Part shown: in pieces, positions 37,327 to 47,552 of the stretch
Layout of the letters: each line of letters starts with the position of its first letter
Numbering within the stretch: the first letter of the stretch is position 1
Assembly: GCA_944323075.1 (NCBI GenBank)
Contig: CALURC010000008.1
Coordinates: forward strand, 186,001-250,000
From: an uncultured Alistipes sp.
GTDB lineage: Bacteria; Bacteroidota; Bacteroidia; Bacteroidales; Rikenellaceae
Direction of reading: 5' to 3'
DNA length: 64,000 bases
Position numbers and translations under genes: made by a program
The notes under the pieces: generated by a model
Told to the model about the DNA's origin: nothing
What the model saw: only the letters and a program-made list of their open reading frames with translations
Database searches by the model: none

Positions 37327-38316
37327 CTAACTCCTTTTGATCTCCAACATGCGCTGGATAGAACGTTCCGCCTTACGCCGGATCTCTTCTTCAAGTATTA
37401 CTTCAGGTGACTCCTCCAGCAACGTCCGGTAAATTTTTTCCAGAGTCACCATCTTCATGTACTCGCACTCGTTACAACCCGATTCGACCCCAGCGGGTGG
37501 TACCGGAATAAACCGTTTGTTCGGATTGTCCTGCTGCATCTGGAACAAAATTCCGGCCTCGGTCACCACGAGGAAAGTATCACACAGATCGCTCGAAGCG
37601 AACTTCAACAGAGCTGCCGTACTGCCCACCACATCAGCCACCGCCAAAACCTCCTCCTTGCACTCGGGATGGGCCAAAACCTTAGCTTGCGGATAGCGTC
37701 TCTTCATCTCGAGAATCTTCTCGGCGGAAAACTTTTCGTGCACCTCACAGGCTCCGTCCCAGATCACCATATTTTTCCGCCCCGTAATCCGCTGAATATA
37801 GCTGCCGAGATTCCGATCCGGCGCGAAGACGATTTTCTGTGTCTCAGGCAGCGAACGGATCACCTCGACTGCATTGCCGGATGTACAACAAATATCCGTC
37901 AAGGCCTTCACCCCAACCGACGTATTTACATAGGATACCACCGTATGGTCCGGATACCCTTTTAAAAATTCGGCGAAACGATCCGCCGTACAGGAGTCGG
38001 CCAACGAACACCCGGCTTGGGGTTCAGGCAGCAACACTTTTTTATCAGGGGCAAGAATTTTTGCAGTCTCCGCCATAAAATGGACGCCAGCAAAGAGCAG
38101 GATCGCCGCATCGGTCTTAGCTGCCTGCGCCGAAAGAGCCAGACTATCTCCGGTAAAGTCGGCAATCTGCTGGACCTCCGGCAAAGTATAATAGTGGGCC
38201 AGGATGATCGCATTTTTTTGTCTCTTCAGATCGCGAATCCGTTCCATACACTCCATAACTGAAGAAGAACATGAAACCGGGTTGTTGTTATTTTGATCAT
38301 TCATGTTTTTGTTCAT
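37327..38316 (-). CDS. nadA: Quinolinate synthase
   Basis: About 329 residues. NadA condenses iminoaspartate with dihydroxyacetone phosphate to quinolinate, using a 4Fe-4S cluster; the cluster Cys are those of CSLADSC, ICCTSGNA and SGCNECEY. The HYYTLPEVQQIADFTGDSLALS and MAETAKIL segments are typical. The ATG at 38316 is taken as start (a TTG at 38328 and an ATG at 38304 are alternatives); the first 20 residues are Asn-rich and not conserved. nadB and nadC are not adjacent. The gene reads away from the putative replication origin. Confidence 0.95.
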   Translation of the reverse strand: MNKNMNDQNNNNPVSCSSSVMECMERIRDLKRQKNAIILAHYYTLPEVQQIADFTGDSLALSAQAAKTDAAILLFAGVHFMAETAKILAPDKKVLLPEPQAGCSLADSCTADRFAEFLKGYPDHTVVSYVNTSVGVKALTDICCTSGNAVEVIRSLPETQKIVFAPDRNLGSYIQRITGRKNMVIWDGACEVHEKFSAEKILEMKRRYPQAKVLAHPECKEEVLAVADVVGSTAALLKFASSDLCDTFLVVTEAGILFQMQQDNPNKRFIPVPPAGVESGCNECEYMKMVTLEKIYRTLLEESPEVILEEEIRRKAERSIQRMLEIKRS

Positions 38317-38329
38317 TTTATTTTTCAAA

Positions 38330-38788
38330 TTTAAAATTCAATCTAAAAAAGAATCAAAACAATAACTGTTCATATTGTTTATAACTAAATTAACTTTTAT
38401 TTATAATCGTTTATCGACAGTTTATAGACAATTTAATCAGCTCTTTACTTATTGAATATCAATTACTCTTTTTGTTGTTTTGAACTTTATGCACATACTT
38501 TTTCCGAAAATATAACGGGATTATCGACAATGAGGTATTTCGACAAAACTGTTTTTATTTACTGTGCAATAGTGTCCATAAGTTCGAACATTTTTCCCTT
38601 GCATTCTTCTTGTTTTTTTATATTCCCTTCTTCTCTTGAATTACGCAAATGTTTTTAATGAAAATCTATGAAAGAATATAAACCGGTGTTAGAATATATT
38701 CCAACACTTTTTTAACATCGCTACCCCGTCCTGTAACTATTGTAAATCAGATGTTTCAAAAAAAACAAGAGAAATTTATCAAAAATCC
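38330..38788. other. Candidate chromosomal replication origin (oriC)
   Basis: 459 bases without a gene, very AT-rich, between nadA and mrp. DnaA-box-like 9-mers (consensus TTATCCACA) occur as TTATCGACA at 38411-38419 and 38521-38529, TTATAGACA at 38422-38430, TTATGCACA at 38487-38495, and TTATGGACA on the minus strand at 38573-38581; a weaker ATTTCGACA is at 38537-38545. All five fit TTATnnACA. The plus strand is C-rich to the left and G-rich to the right even over genes of the same orientation (for example 26 C/10 G in 37621-37680, within minus-strand nadA, against 9 C/22 G in 52321-52380, within a minus-strand peptidase gene). That is the skew change expected at an origin. Confidence 0.75.
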
Positions 38789-39856
38789 TTATTGCTTATT
38801 GAGTACTTCGAGCATATGGTCTGCTAATAATTGATAGTATTCACTCGTGGGGGTATTCTCCATGGAAATAGGTTTACCTTCGTCAGCTGATTCCATAATG
38901 TTTTGGATCAGCGGGATTTGGGCCAGCAACGGCAATTGTTCCTTTTCTGCCAGTCGTTTCGTGCCCTCTTTGCCGAAAAGGTAGTATTTGTGGTCAGGTA
39001 ACTCTTCAGGAGTAAACCACGCCATGTTTTCAACAAGTCCCAATACCGGAATTCCGATCTTTTCATTGCGGAACATCGATATACCTCGTACCACATCGGC
39101 CAATGCTATCTTTTGTGGCGTACTGACAATGATGGCTCCGCTCAGAGACATCTCCTGAAGTATTGAAAGGTGTATGTCTCCGGTTCCGGGAGGCATGTCG
39201 ATCAGCAGAAAATCGAGTTCTCCCCATAGAGTTTGTCGAATCATCTGTCGCAGTGCATTGATGGCCATAGGGCCTCGCCACATCAGTGCATCTTTTGGGT
39301 TGATAAAAAAGCCGATAGACATGATGAGGATCCCGAAACGATCTGCCGGACGAATCCATTCGTGTCCATCAACCTCTATACCGTCGGGTTGATACCCTTC
39401 AAGGTCGAACAGCATAGGCTGTGAGGGGCCGTAAATGTCGGCATCGAGTATTCCGACTCGATACCCTTTTTTTGAAAGAGCAACAGCCAGATTAGCCGTA
39501 ACCGTACTCTTCCCCACTCCGCCTTTTGCTGAACTGATTGCTACGATTCTTCCTGTTTTACCATCGCTGCCGAATACGGTGCGTTCATGAGTTTCGGTTG
39601 GCTTTTTATTTGGATTCTCTTTGATAAAGATGTGTATGTTGCCAGCGTATTCGGGATGACGGGCAACGATCAACTCTTCGCAACGCTTTTTGATGGCTGC
39701 GGCGAACGGGTCCCGGTTTCTGGTGAAAACAAGGGAAAATTGAATTTTTTCTGATGTGACCGTAGGATTTTCGATCATGCCTAAGGTGACGATATCACCT
39801 TGTCGTTCGGGATGTACTACTTCATGTAATAGACCGAACAGTTCTTCTTGTGTCAT
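38789..39856 (-). CDS. mrp: Mrp/NBP35-family iron-sulfur carrier ATPase (ApbC-like)
   Basis: 355 residues: an N-terminal MIP18/DUF59-like domain (about 1-80) and a ParA/MinD-like ATPase with the deviant Walker A SAKGGVGKSTVTANLAVALSKKG. DADIYGPSQPML and MPPGTGDIHLSI complete the P-loop fold. Mrp proteins carry or transfer 4Fe-4S clusters. The CxxC that many family members have after the VENMAWF segment is absent here (FTPEELPDHKYY), as in other Bacteroidota versions. It is the only minus-strand gene immediately to the right of the putative origin. Confidence 0.93.
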   Translation of the reverse strand: MTQEELFGLLHEVVHPERQGDIVTLGMIENPTVTSEKIQFSLVFTRNRDPFAAAIKKRCEELIVARHPEYAGNIHIFIKENPNKKPTETHERTVFGSDGKTGRIVAISSAKGGVGKSTVTANLAVALSKKGYRVGILDADIYGPSQPMLFDLEGYQPDGIEVDGHEWIRPADRFGILIMSIGFFINPKDALMWRGPMAINALRQMIRQTLWGELDFLLIDMPPGTGDIHLSILQEMSLSGAIIVSTPQKIALADVVRGISMFRNEKIGIPVLGLVENMAWFTPEELPDHKYYLFGKEGTKRLAEKEQLPLLAQIPLIQNIMESADEGKPISMENTPTSEYYQLLADHMLEVLNKQ

Positions 39857-44347: not shown

Positions 44348-44698
44348 ATGTCTGATAACGATTGGAAGAGCCGTCTGCATGTCGTCTATTCGACGAATCC
44401 CGATTTTCAGTATCAGTATGAAGAGGATGAGCCGGTGCAGGAGACTTTGCCTCCGGCGCAGCAGCGTCTGAAAGTGTGGCTCGACCGGAAACAGCGGGCC
44501 GGAAAACAGGTTACGCTCGTTAAGGGGTTTGTCGGGACGGAAGAGGATTTGAAGGAGTTGGGACGGATGCTCAAGAGTAAGTGTGGAGTAGGGGGTACGG
44601 CGAAGGATGGAGAGATTCTGATACAGGGAGATTTCCGCGATCGGGTGGTCGAGGTTTTGACCCGTGCCGGTTATCAAGCCAAGAAGGCGGGAGGATAG
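44348..44698 (+). CDS. SUI1/eIF1-like translation factor (YciH family)
   Basis: 116 residues. The C-terminal SUI1 fold is recognisable in [56 protein letters not shown]. Bacterial members influence start-codon selection, but the role in Bacteroidota is not established. The N-terminal 40 residues are acidic and probably flexible. The gap to ssb is 19 bases and the next gene starts five bases after its stop. Confidence 0.9.
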
Positions 44699-44702
44699 AT
44701 CG

Positions 44703-47552
44703 ATGAGGGTGCTGTTGCGGTGTATCGGTGCGTGGATAGTCGTGCTGATAGGATCGGGATTTTCGACCCTGTCGGGACAATACTACGATTGGGGCCGTTC
44801 GCCGCAGAGTATTCGGTGGAATCAGGCCAAAACCGCTGAAGGAACCATTATCTTTCCGGATTATTACCAGAAGAATGCAGCCCGGATCGCATCCTATATG
44901 GAGCTGTTGCGTCCGTCGGTTGCGTATGGATTCAAGTATGGGCCGTTGCGCATGCCCGTATTGTTGCATACCCAGAATTTCGTATCGAACGGAATCGTAA
45001 TCTGGGCGCCGAAGCGGATCGAGCTCGAAGCGATTCCCCCGGCAGCTCCCTTTGCCGAACCGTGGCACAAACAGTTGATCGCCCATGAATACCGCCATGC
45101 GGTCCAGTACAACAACCTCTATCGCGGACCGATGAAGTGGTTGGGGTACCTGATCGGACAGCAGTCGGGTTTGATCAGTTCGGTATTGATGCCGATCTGG
45201 TTTTTGGAGGGTGATGCGGTTATGCACGAAACGCAGACGGCTACTTACGGTCGGGCGTTGCAACCCTCCTTTACGATCGAATACAGGGCCTACCTGACCG
45301 AAGGAAAACGCAAATTTGCCTTGGACAAATGGTTCTGCGGCTCCTATAAAGATTACATTCCGGACCACTATCAGTTCGGGTATCAGCTGGCTACATGGTC
45401 GCGCGAACGGTACGGAGATGACATGTGGTCTCGTGTGGCTGAATACGCCTCCAAACGCCCCTATACGATTTTTACTACACCGTGGGCCCTGCGCAAATAC
45501 TACCGGACAACCTCCGGTCGGATTGCTCGTGAAACGCTCGACGAGCTCGAACGCTTCTGGAAAACGCAGCCGGTCGAACCGAACAGCAGTGTGATCATTC
45601 CGACCCCGATTACCAGCTATACGGTCTATTCGGCTCCGATGAAGCTGAACGATACGACGGTGCTTGCGCTCAAGCGCGATATGGACCGTACCAGTCGGGT
45701 GGTGGTCGTGGATTCCCGATCCGGAAAGGAGCGCAGGCTCTTTTATACGGGAAGTGTAAATACGGCTCCGGTCTTGCGCGACAGTGTACTCTACTGGAGC
45801 GAGTACCGCAGCAGTACGTTTTGGAGCCAGCGGATCTCTTCGAAGATATGCTCTTATGACTTGAGGAGTGGAAAACGTCGGACGTTGCGGCATTTCGACA
45901 ATGCGCTCTTTCCGCAGCCGTTGGATGACGGTACGCTGGCGGCGATCGGGTACGATTATCGGGGGATTTACCGGTTGGAGTTCAGTGACGGACGGCAATT
46001 CAATCTGCCCGATACGGTTTCGGTGCACGGATTGGCCTACGATGATCGTACCCGGACGTTGGCCGTTATTACGTTAAGCGATGCGGGTATGGCTATCCGC
46101 CGGATCGATCCCGAAACCGGAGCGATGACCGCTCTTACGGAACCTTCGTATGTCAGCATATATAACTTGCGCGGAGGAGCCGGCAAACTCTCCTTTAACT
46201 CGATCGCTTCGGGAAAAGACGAGATTCATCTCTATGATCTGGAGCAACATCGCGAATTTCGGCTGAGTCGGTCGCGATACGGTTCGGTTGCGCCGTCAGA
46301 CCCTGCATCCGATGATACGCTTCTGTTCACGACCTATTCGTTGGAGGGTTATCGTTTGGCCCGGCAGCCGATCGTTGCGGATTCTCTTGTACCTGTCGGG
46401 TATCGGAAAATACCCGAAAACCGGGTGAATCCACCTCGGCGAAAATGGAACATAATCAATATCGATACGGTCAGGGGCGATTCGCTTTTTTGTGACGGAG
46501 TGCGCGTGAAACGATATAGAAAGGGAACCCATCTGTTCAACCTGCACAGTTGGGCACCGTGGAACTTCAATCCGTTCAACATCGCCGGAGAGAGTCGGAT
46601 CGATGTGGGATTCGGGGCTACGGTCATGTCGCAAAACCTGTTGGCCAACACGTTCGGTTATTTGGCCTACGGGTATTCGCCCGGTAACGGAAGTCTGCTT
46701 CGCGGTGCACTGAACTACTACGGATGGGCTCCGAAATTCGAATTCTCTTTTCTCTATGGAGGAGGGAAGCAACAGGTTTATGGAACATATCCTGAAGAAC
46801 GGGATTTCATTGCTCGAAAAGAGTATGTCGATCTGGGAATCATGGCCTATCTGCCGATGACCCTCTCTTCCGGACATTTGACGCGTACGTTGGCACCGGC
46901 CGTCGAATTGCGGCATACGAATGCACTGCTCGTTGAAAACTCTTCGGTAACGACCGGATATCAGCGGATGGTGGTCAATCTGACCTATTCCGAGAATGTG
47001 CGGATGGCTACGCGCGATCTGTTGCCCCGATGGGGATACCTGTTGCGGGCCTCAATGGTGTGTGCTCCCTTTTCGTCGAAGTTCAGTCGGATCTATTCAC
47101 TGTTCGGAAGGGTTTATCTGCCCGGTGTAATGATGCATCACTCGTTGACGTTGCGGGGTAACCTGCAGCGTCAGAAGACCGCCACCTATGGCTTTTATTA
47201 CAAAGAACTCTTTCCGCGTGGAGCACGTTATGATGTTTCGGCAAATCGGCTCGGAGCCCTTTCGGTCGATTATCAGTTTCCCGTGTGGTGTCCCGACGGA
47301 GGGATCAACAGCATCCTTTATTTCCGGCGGATCCGGTTGAACGGTTACTACGATTTTGCCCGGATCGAATCCTCGGAGGGAGGATCGCACTTGAGGTCGA
47401 CGCAGACAGTAACCTCCTATGGTGGTGAGCTCATTTTCGATGTGCAGCCGTTGCGTCTGCCGGTCAATACGGCTTCGGTAGGAGTTTATATCTATAAGCC
47501 CAGTGACCGGGCCGGCGTGGTTACCGGAGTCAGTCTGTCGCTTCCGTTGTAA
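44703..47552 (+). CDS. Large exported protein: gluzincin-like peptidase, propeller and barrel
   Basis: 949 residues with a signal peptide (LRCIGAWIVVLIGSGFSTLSG). An N-terminal domain has a zinc-metallopeptidase signature, HEYRH at 128-132, and a Glu at 169 in WFLEGDAVMHET that fits the third ligand of gluzincins. The middle (about 300-600) has repeats with short Asp/Gly-rich turns such as DSRSGKERRLFYTG and YDLRSGKRRTL, typical of a TolB/WD40-like propeller. The last 350 residues alternate short Tyr/Arg-rich strands and end VSLSLPL, as in outer-membrane barrels. The role is unknown; a surface protease anchored by its barrel would fit. It starts five bases after the SUI1-type gene. Confidence 0.8.
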   Translation: MRVLLRCIGAWIVVLIGSGFSTLSGQYYDWGRSPQSIRWNQAKTAEGTIIFPDYYQKNAARIASYMELLRPSVAYGFKYGPLRMPVLLHTQNFVSNGIVIWAPKRIELEAIPPAAPFAEPWHKQLIAHEYRHAVQYNNLYRGPMKWLGYLIGQQSGLISSVLMPIWFLEGDAVMHETQTATYGRALQPSFTIEYRAYLTEGKRKFALDKWFCGSYKDYIPDHYQFGYQLATWSRERYGDDMWSRVAEYASKRPYTIFTTPWALRKYYRTTSGRIARETLDELERFWKTQPVEPNSSVIIPTPITSYTVYSAPMKLNDTTVLALKRDMDRTSRVVVVDSRSGKERRLFYTGSVNTAPVLRDSVLYWSEYRSSTFWSQRISSKICSYDLRSGKRRTLRHFDNALFPQPLDDGTLAAIGYDYRGIYRLEFSDGRQFNLPDTVSVHGLAYDDRTRTLAVITLSDAGMAIRRIDPETGAMTALTEPSYVSIYNLRGGAGKLSFNSIASGKDEIHLYDLEQHREFRLSRSRYGSVAPSDPASDDTLLFTTYSLEGYRLARQPIVADSLVPVGYRKIPENRVNPPRRKWNIINIDTVRGDSLFCDGVRVKRYRKGTHLFNLHSWAPWNFNPFNIAGESRIDVGFGATVMSQNLLANTFGYLAYGYSPGNGSLLRGALNYYGWAPKFEFSFLYGGGKQQVYGTYPEERDFIARKEYVDLGIMAYLPMTLSSGHLTRTLAPAVELRHTNALLVENSSVTTGYQRMVVNLTYSENVRMATRDLLPRWGYLLRASMVCAPFSSKFSRIYSLFGRVYLPGVMMHHSLTLRGNLQRQKTATYGFYYKELFPRGARYDVSANRLGALSVDYQFPVWCPDGGINSILYFRRIRLNGYYDFARIESSEGGSHLRSTQTVTSYGGELIFDVQPLRLPVNTASVGVYIYKPSDRAGVVTGVSLSLPL

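Follow-up and report, generated by a model that had tools for sequence, protein, structure and literature searches.

A probable chromosomal replication origin between nadA and mrp, unlinked to dnaA, in an uncultured Alistipes

In Escherichia coli, the AT-rich DNA of oriC is opened by DnaA acting on several 9-mers. The oriC of Bacillus subtilis contains a basal unwinding system (BUS), made up of DnaA boxes 6/7 and DnaA-trios (PMC8287927). In the part of that paper available to us, a BUS has one or two DnaA boxes, tandem boxes being the most frequent arrangement and the upstream box the better one, and the trios follow at a spacer that peaks at 10–13. The search rule given there asks for at least three 3′-NAN-5′ trinucleotides within 16 bases of a box; the trio proximal to the box is most often 3′-GAT-5′, which is a tendency and not a requirement. 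In the Bacteroidetes, oriC commonly lies far from dnaA (PMC4755523). One such origin, that of Prevotella intermedia OMA14 chromosome 1, was predicted by Ori-Finder using E. coli boxes, and the accessible part of the same paper mentions neither a trinucleotide element nor a nadA/mrp context. Ori-Finder and DoriC use boxes, skew and trios (PMC10225481, PMC6323995), and by word search the string "Bacteroid" is absent from the main texts, as available, of these two papers and of PMC8287927. A literature search returned no paper on DnaA-trios in Bacteroidetes, nor any on an Alistipes replication origin or DnaA box; database entries (e.g., predictions for relatives in DoriC) may exist.

Here, we analyze a window of 64,000 nucleotides from an uncultured Alistipes (G000:C8:186001-250000), whose genome is a 2,535,248-base draft in 19 contigs. 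We conclude, with a probability of roughly 0.94, that the gap between nadA and mrp (38317–38788) is the chromosomal oriC, where DnaA would act through its boxes and through a box pair with an adjoining trinucleotide tract. An earlier note on this DNA had placed an origin of the non-dnaA-linked kind between these two genes, and had seen no dnaA in the window. Indeed, dnaA lies on a separate contig (G000:C1:100111), and the proposed origin is supported by its boxes, by the switch in skew, and by the corresponding gap of three relatives. The site is of an ordinary kind and well supported: an origin with a conserved unwinding element, unlinked to dnaA. Bacteroidetes with an origin away from dnaA have been described before; the lineage is new, and so is the putative BUS-layout element at the nadA end of the gap.

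Like E. coli oriC, the locus combines AT-rich DNA, here predicted to open, with several DnaA 9-mers; unlike it, the locus has another box preference at position 6 and another gene context. With the P. intermedia OMA14 chromosome 1 origin, as far as it is described in PMC4755523, it shares a skew transition, multiple DnaA boxes and the lack of a nearby dnaA. The likeness to the B. subtilis BUS, taken from the available text of PMC8287927, consists of tandem boxes, the first being the better match, and a tract at a spacer of 10–13. Unlike that BUS, the site here is unlinked to dnaA, its boxes mostly carry A or G at position 6, and its tract, read on the box strand, consists mostly of TTA/TTN and not of the complement of the 3′-GAT-5′ consensus. 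In the mechanism we envisage, DnaA from the distant gene would bind the scattered boxes and the abutting pair at 38367–38384. An ATP-DnaA filament would then extend from the pair onto one strand of the tract at 38346–38363, the AT-rich DNA by the nadA start would open, helicases would load, and forks would leave in both directions.

For a gut-type Bacteroidales lineage that has been little studied, this narrows the probable origin to about 470 bases, and the conserved context of the gap offers a usable anchor for rotating assemblies and for read-depth estimates of growth rate. What appears to be an unwinding element of the B. subtilis type is also seen here at origins that are not linked to dnaA.

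DnaA boxes in the nadA–mrp gap

The gap, its flanking genes and its scattered boxes are as follows.

37327..38316, minus strand: nadA, quinolinate synthase, left neighbour (NCBIfam NF006878/TIGR00550; ATG at 38316, ORF open from TTG at 38328)
38317..38788, no strand: proposed oriC intergenic region, the nadA–mrp gap (six DnaA boxes, GC3 skew switch, gap kept in relatives)
38411..38419, plus strand: DnaA box TTATCGACA
38422..38430, plus strand: DnaA box TTATAGACA, 11 bp from the box at 38411
38487..38495, plus strand: DnaA box TTATGCACA
38521..38529, plus strand: DnaA box TTATCGACA, second copy
38573..38581, minus strand: DnaA box TTATGGACA
38686..38707, minus strand: near-perfect 22-base palindrome, terminator-like (1 found vs 0.1 expected)
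38789..39856, minus strand: mrp/apbC-type P-loop ATPase, right neighbour (best NCBIfam match NF008669, below cut-off)

DnaA boxes are clustered in this intergenic DNA. The earlier note had counted five TTATNNACA 9-mers in an AT-rich gap; the cluster and the AT-richness stand, and the count becomes six, at 38376(-), 38411(+), 38422(+), 38487(+), 38521(+) and 38573(-). In 5000 dinucleotide shuffles of the 459-base gap, the mean number of TTATNNACA was 0.23 and the maximum 4, none of the shuffles reaching six. As judged by sequence composition, the DNA beside the boxes is AT-rich (74% for the gap). Our sample of the genome comprised the window and 40 further stretches, a total of 822,952 bases or about one-third of the 2,535,248. 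Nowhere else in this sample do more than four TTATNNACA fall within 459 bases, and two places have four. The narrower pattern TTATNGACA fits four of the gap boxes, all inside 171 bases, and has 119 sites in the whole genome.

Could this be a locus that binds DnaA to regulate or titrate it, as datA and DARS do in E. coli, without firing? Box clusters do occur elsewhere in the genome, as such a reading would have it. Loci of this kind are not expected, however, to coincide with a skew switch or to carry a box pair and tract, and we regard the idea as almost certainly wrong.

The number of TTATNNACA is not the conserved part of the site: the same gap holds one in the one-contig relative G206 (L036) and none in G253 (L295). 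In both of these gaps, the box pair and tract are kept, with diverged boxes.

Several minor features may be recorded here. The palindrome at 38686..38707 may perhaps end mrp transcription, and a promoter scan gave no excess (3 found vs 3.1 expected). Beyond mrp, the plus strand carries sppA, lpxK and pnp. A dpp7-like peptidase gene lies directly upstream of mrp in 7 of 80 named mrp records (L087, L094, L096, L107, L118, L125, L138); in the window, dpp7 lies just past nadA. An ORF of 962 aa at 44664-47552 has no Pfam or NCBIfam match at E 0.001; relatives at the corresponding position share 69% identity with it in G206 and 60% in G245. One four-box TTATNNACA cluster (L271:5291-5731, G000:C13 about 90291) adjoins a ribonuclease HII gene, and another (L216:15459-15584, G000:C3) adjoins a uvrA-like gene. 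About 2.6 kb upstream of dnaA, past two ORFs, three TTATNNACA occur in a stretch of 76% AT (L233:12604-12769, G000:C1 about 103604).

Strand skew in the window and along the chromosome

Across the gap, the plus strand passes from C-rich to G-rich, as the earlier note had stated also for genes of the same orientation. We scored GC3 skew in 38 long ORFs, chosen from the ORF list between 7397 and 62752. On the plus strand, all 21 scored genes on the left (7397 to nadA) have negative values and all 17 on the right (mrp to 62752) positive ones, irrespective of gene orientation. The contrast is sharp even between the two neighbours, with nadA at -0.28 and mrp at +0.14, though both are minus-strand genes. 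Thirty ORFs initially left out (about 150 aa or more, many overlapping scored genes) behave similarly: skew is negative for 15 of the 17 left of the gap and positive for 11 of the 13 right of it, and each of the four exceptions (15399, 34069, 40723, 52186) overlaps a longer ORF. Gene orientation also turns mostly plus to the right of the gap, as had been noted, with 15 of 17 scored genes on that strand. Cumulative skew within the window has its minimum at 39571, in a near-flat region from 38250 to 39750.

Since the genome is a draft in 19 contigs, a full cumulative skew curve is impossible, and skew was sampled instead. On C8, four stretches before the window are negative and two after it positive. 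Elsewhere, stretches are negative on C16 (9/9) and on C1, which carries dnaA (4/4), and positive on C5 (3/3), C13 (2/2) and C7 (2/2). A plus-to-minus change on C14 may mark the terminus side. No clear minus-to-plus switch was seen on another contig in the 40 stretches, 12 of the 19 contigs being sampled by one stretch each; the only hint is in the first 5 kb of C4.

From each of three relatives in the family whose genomes are single contigs (G206, G245, G282), we took 20 stretches of 20 kb. In every one of these relatives, the main minus-to-plus switch among the sampled stretches falls inside the stretch that holds nadA and mrp. In G206, with the switching stretch excluded, skew is below zero, in some cases only slightly, in all 11 stretches between 0.30 and 1.82 Mb and positive in all eight others. 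In G245, 18 of 19 stretches agree with a pair of switches, at the gap and on the far side, the exception being 0.30 Mb (+0.017); the same two-switch pattern accounts for 18 of 19 in G282, with an exception at 2.55 Mb (-0.002). Within the gap stretch, the cumulative minimum lies at 1838149 in G206 (nadA at 1835910), 1779420 in G245 (1779212) and 1153807 in G282 (1154627), within about 2.3 kb of nadA in all three. In G282, the point opposite the gap is bracketed by the far-side switch; in G206, the switch is close to that point, and in G245 it is 0.2–0.3 Mb off. The family member G211, also a single contig, has nadA and mrp some 826 kb apart; its skew is weak and irregular, with no clear switch at nadA.

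These data bear on a different account of the skew switch, in which segments of opposite skew were brought together here by a local inversion or a foreign island, the true origin lying elsewhere, for example at dnaA. The draft state of the genome and the sampling of skew leave some room for it. Yet the gap is also the place of the switch in three one-contig relatives, G206 and G245 share the block of genes around it, and the contig with dnaA is negative in all of its four stretches, so that this account appears extremely unlikely. In G206, G245 and G282, the distance from the gap to dnaA is 1.2–1.4 Mb. On the path from the origin to the opposite point, dnaA stands at about 78%, 82% and 81%, respectively, closer to the terminus than to the origin.

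The box pair and its trinucleotide tract

The most telling feature of the site, absent from the earlier note, is a pair of abutting boxes followed by a tract of trinucleotides.

38376..38384, minus strand: BUS DnaA box 1, TTATAAACA
38367..38375, minus strand: BUS DnaA box 2, ATATGAACA, abutting box 1 (column counts in 34 gaps)
38346..38363, minus strand: six trinucleotides NTN (3′-NAN-5′ on the other strand), DnaA-trio-like, 12 bases after box 1 (rule of PMC8287927)

We examined 53 genomes of the family and found the order nadA, gap, mrp in 34, giving 34 distinct gaps. In all 34, the best match lies at the nadA end and has the same layout: a box resembling TTATCAACA abuts a second one resembling NTATGAACA, and a few bases further on comes the tract TTATTATTnTTnTT, with AT-rich DNA after it. 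The consensus match is better than all 30 single-base shuffles in 33 of the gaps (the exception is L281); this test is partly circular for eight of them, because the consensus was built from an alignment of those eight, which belong to the genus. A three-base period is evident in the tract, T making up 82–100% of columns 23-24, 26-27, 29-30, 32-33 and 35-36 and at most 18% of columns 25, 28, 31 and 34.

The tandem boxes of the window (38367–38384), in the layout common to the 34 gaps, are followed within 16 bases by six 3′-NAN-5′ trinucleotides at a spacer of 12, where at least three mark a BUS; shuffles of the tract's own bases reach three in 61%. At a spacer of 10–13, at least three are present in 32 of the 34 gaps, L289 and L291 having two, and control positions in the same gaps reach that number in 8%. 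At least six are present in 30 of 34, compared with 15% of the own-base shuffles. Since the tract is T-rich and such shuffles often reach three, run length alone is weak evidence. None of the six trinucleotides in the window is 3′-GAT-5′; several relatives carry CTA at the box-proximal place on the box strand.

The element is conserved in the family and rare elsewhere in the sampled genomes. Using a 40-column model built without the sequence under test, the site in this genome scores 35.4, while no other place exceeds 12.3 in the 40 stretches or 9.4 in the rest of the window. Among the relatives, the site compares with the best match elsewhere in 20 stretches as 50.0 to 14.2 (G206), 36.2 to 7.7 (G245) and 42.3 to 12.3 (G282). 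The spaced pattern TTATNNACANNATNAACAGNNATT has a single exact match in the whole genome, at the gap, with one place at one mismatch (C8:101711) and one at two. A second, opposite-facing element at 38582(+) was considered and dropped, as its score is only 9.4.

In the 19 family genomes for which the nadA-gap-mrp order was not observed, the element is present in six, with scores of 27–43. It lies upstream of nadA in G225, G217, G203, G204 and G231, and beside mrp in G290; in G225, G203 and G204, the contig ends at the site, which limits the call of gene order. In the fetched stretches of the other 13, some of them cut by contig ends (G267 and G208 close to nadA), the element did not turn up, and its position is therefore not shared by the whole family. 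These findings are pertinent to the suggestion that the conserved element is a promoter or leader of nadA, and that the skew switch is nearby by coincidence. In keeping with this, the element ends 27–58 bases from the nadA start in 28 of the 34 gaps (69–163 in the other six), and G217 and G231 keep it upstream of nadA without mrp alongside. In G290, on the other hand, the neighbours of the element are mrp and a DHH-family gene; nadA lies on a different contig, and no element was found upstream of it there. In L063 (score 24.5), a record titled Alistipes, the element follows mrp and one further ORF, a setting similar enough to suggest that the family genomes are relatives of Alistipes (Rikenellaceae). 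As either gene can be missing beside the element, a plain signal of nadA or of mrp would not account for it. Furthermore, nadA is found without the element in the fetched stretches of G211 (L206, L305) and G224, an Rfam search of the window gave no family at the gathering threshold, and the gap shows no unusual RNA folding (z -1.06). We consider a promoter or leader a very unlikely explanation, and favor a role for the element in the origin.

Other search patterns were tried and set aside. A degenerate pattern with one mismatch allowed, applied order-wide, matched 77 of 199 genomes, including all three family genomes in the draw; as the reversed control matched about 64, the result carries little weight beyond the family. 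Of 13 genomes searched with a stricter pattern that allowed two mismatches, five gave hits, at the origin in G206, G245 and G290 and without TTATNNACA nearby in G211 and G224; this pattern missed G253, G282 and G296, whose gaps carry the element, and is thus not sensitive. As an origin marker, mrp alone was also rejected: among the mrp loci collected, 107 showed no nadA in the stretch of DNA available around them.

Box preference and the DnaA recognition motif

Origin boxes of the family are mainly TTATC[A/G]ACA, with A or G at position 6, and not TTATCCACA. DnaA touches its box with residues of a recognition helix, and in all 12 DnaA proteins of the family (from this genome and 11 further members) the motif at that position is NHATV. 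In a phylum sample, DH[STA]TV is present in 30 of 30, these being the best-scoring 30 loci of 60 genomes and hence biased to canonical forms. For the order outside the family, 17 of 19 readable DnaAs have DH[SA]TV (20 fetched; 61 genomes had matches), the exceptions being one NHATV (G011) and one KHSSV. Chain 8btg, which we take to be B. subtilis DnaA, has DHTTV at the matching place. It is conceivable that DnaA and box changed together in this family, a natural shift of the DnaA-box code; given that the correlation comes from sequences of one lineage, we put this forward tentatively, as a possibility on the doubtful side. The proposed match between the altered motif in DnaA and the altered box is testable. 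A literature search found no paper on DnaA Asp433 together with Thr435.

Word counts, which assume no motif, were made in 33 non-redundant gaps. The enriched words include TATCAACA (23 gaps), TATCGACA (17) and, in fewer gaps, TATCCACA (7). Most of the top words represent the DnaA box or the box-tract junction, as pieces or variants, or else are TTATTATT; a few of those listed are not clearly box pieces, for example ACAACTGT, which is present in 8 gaps.
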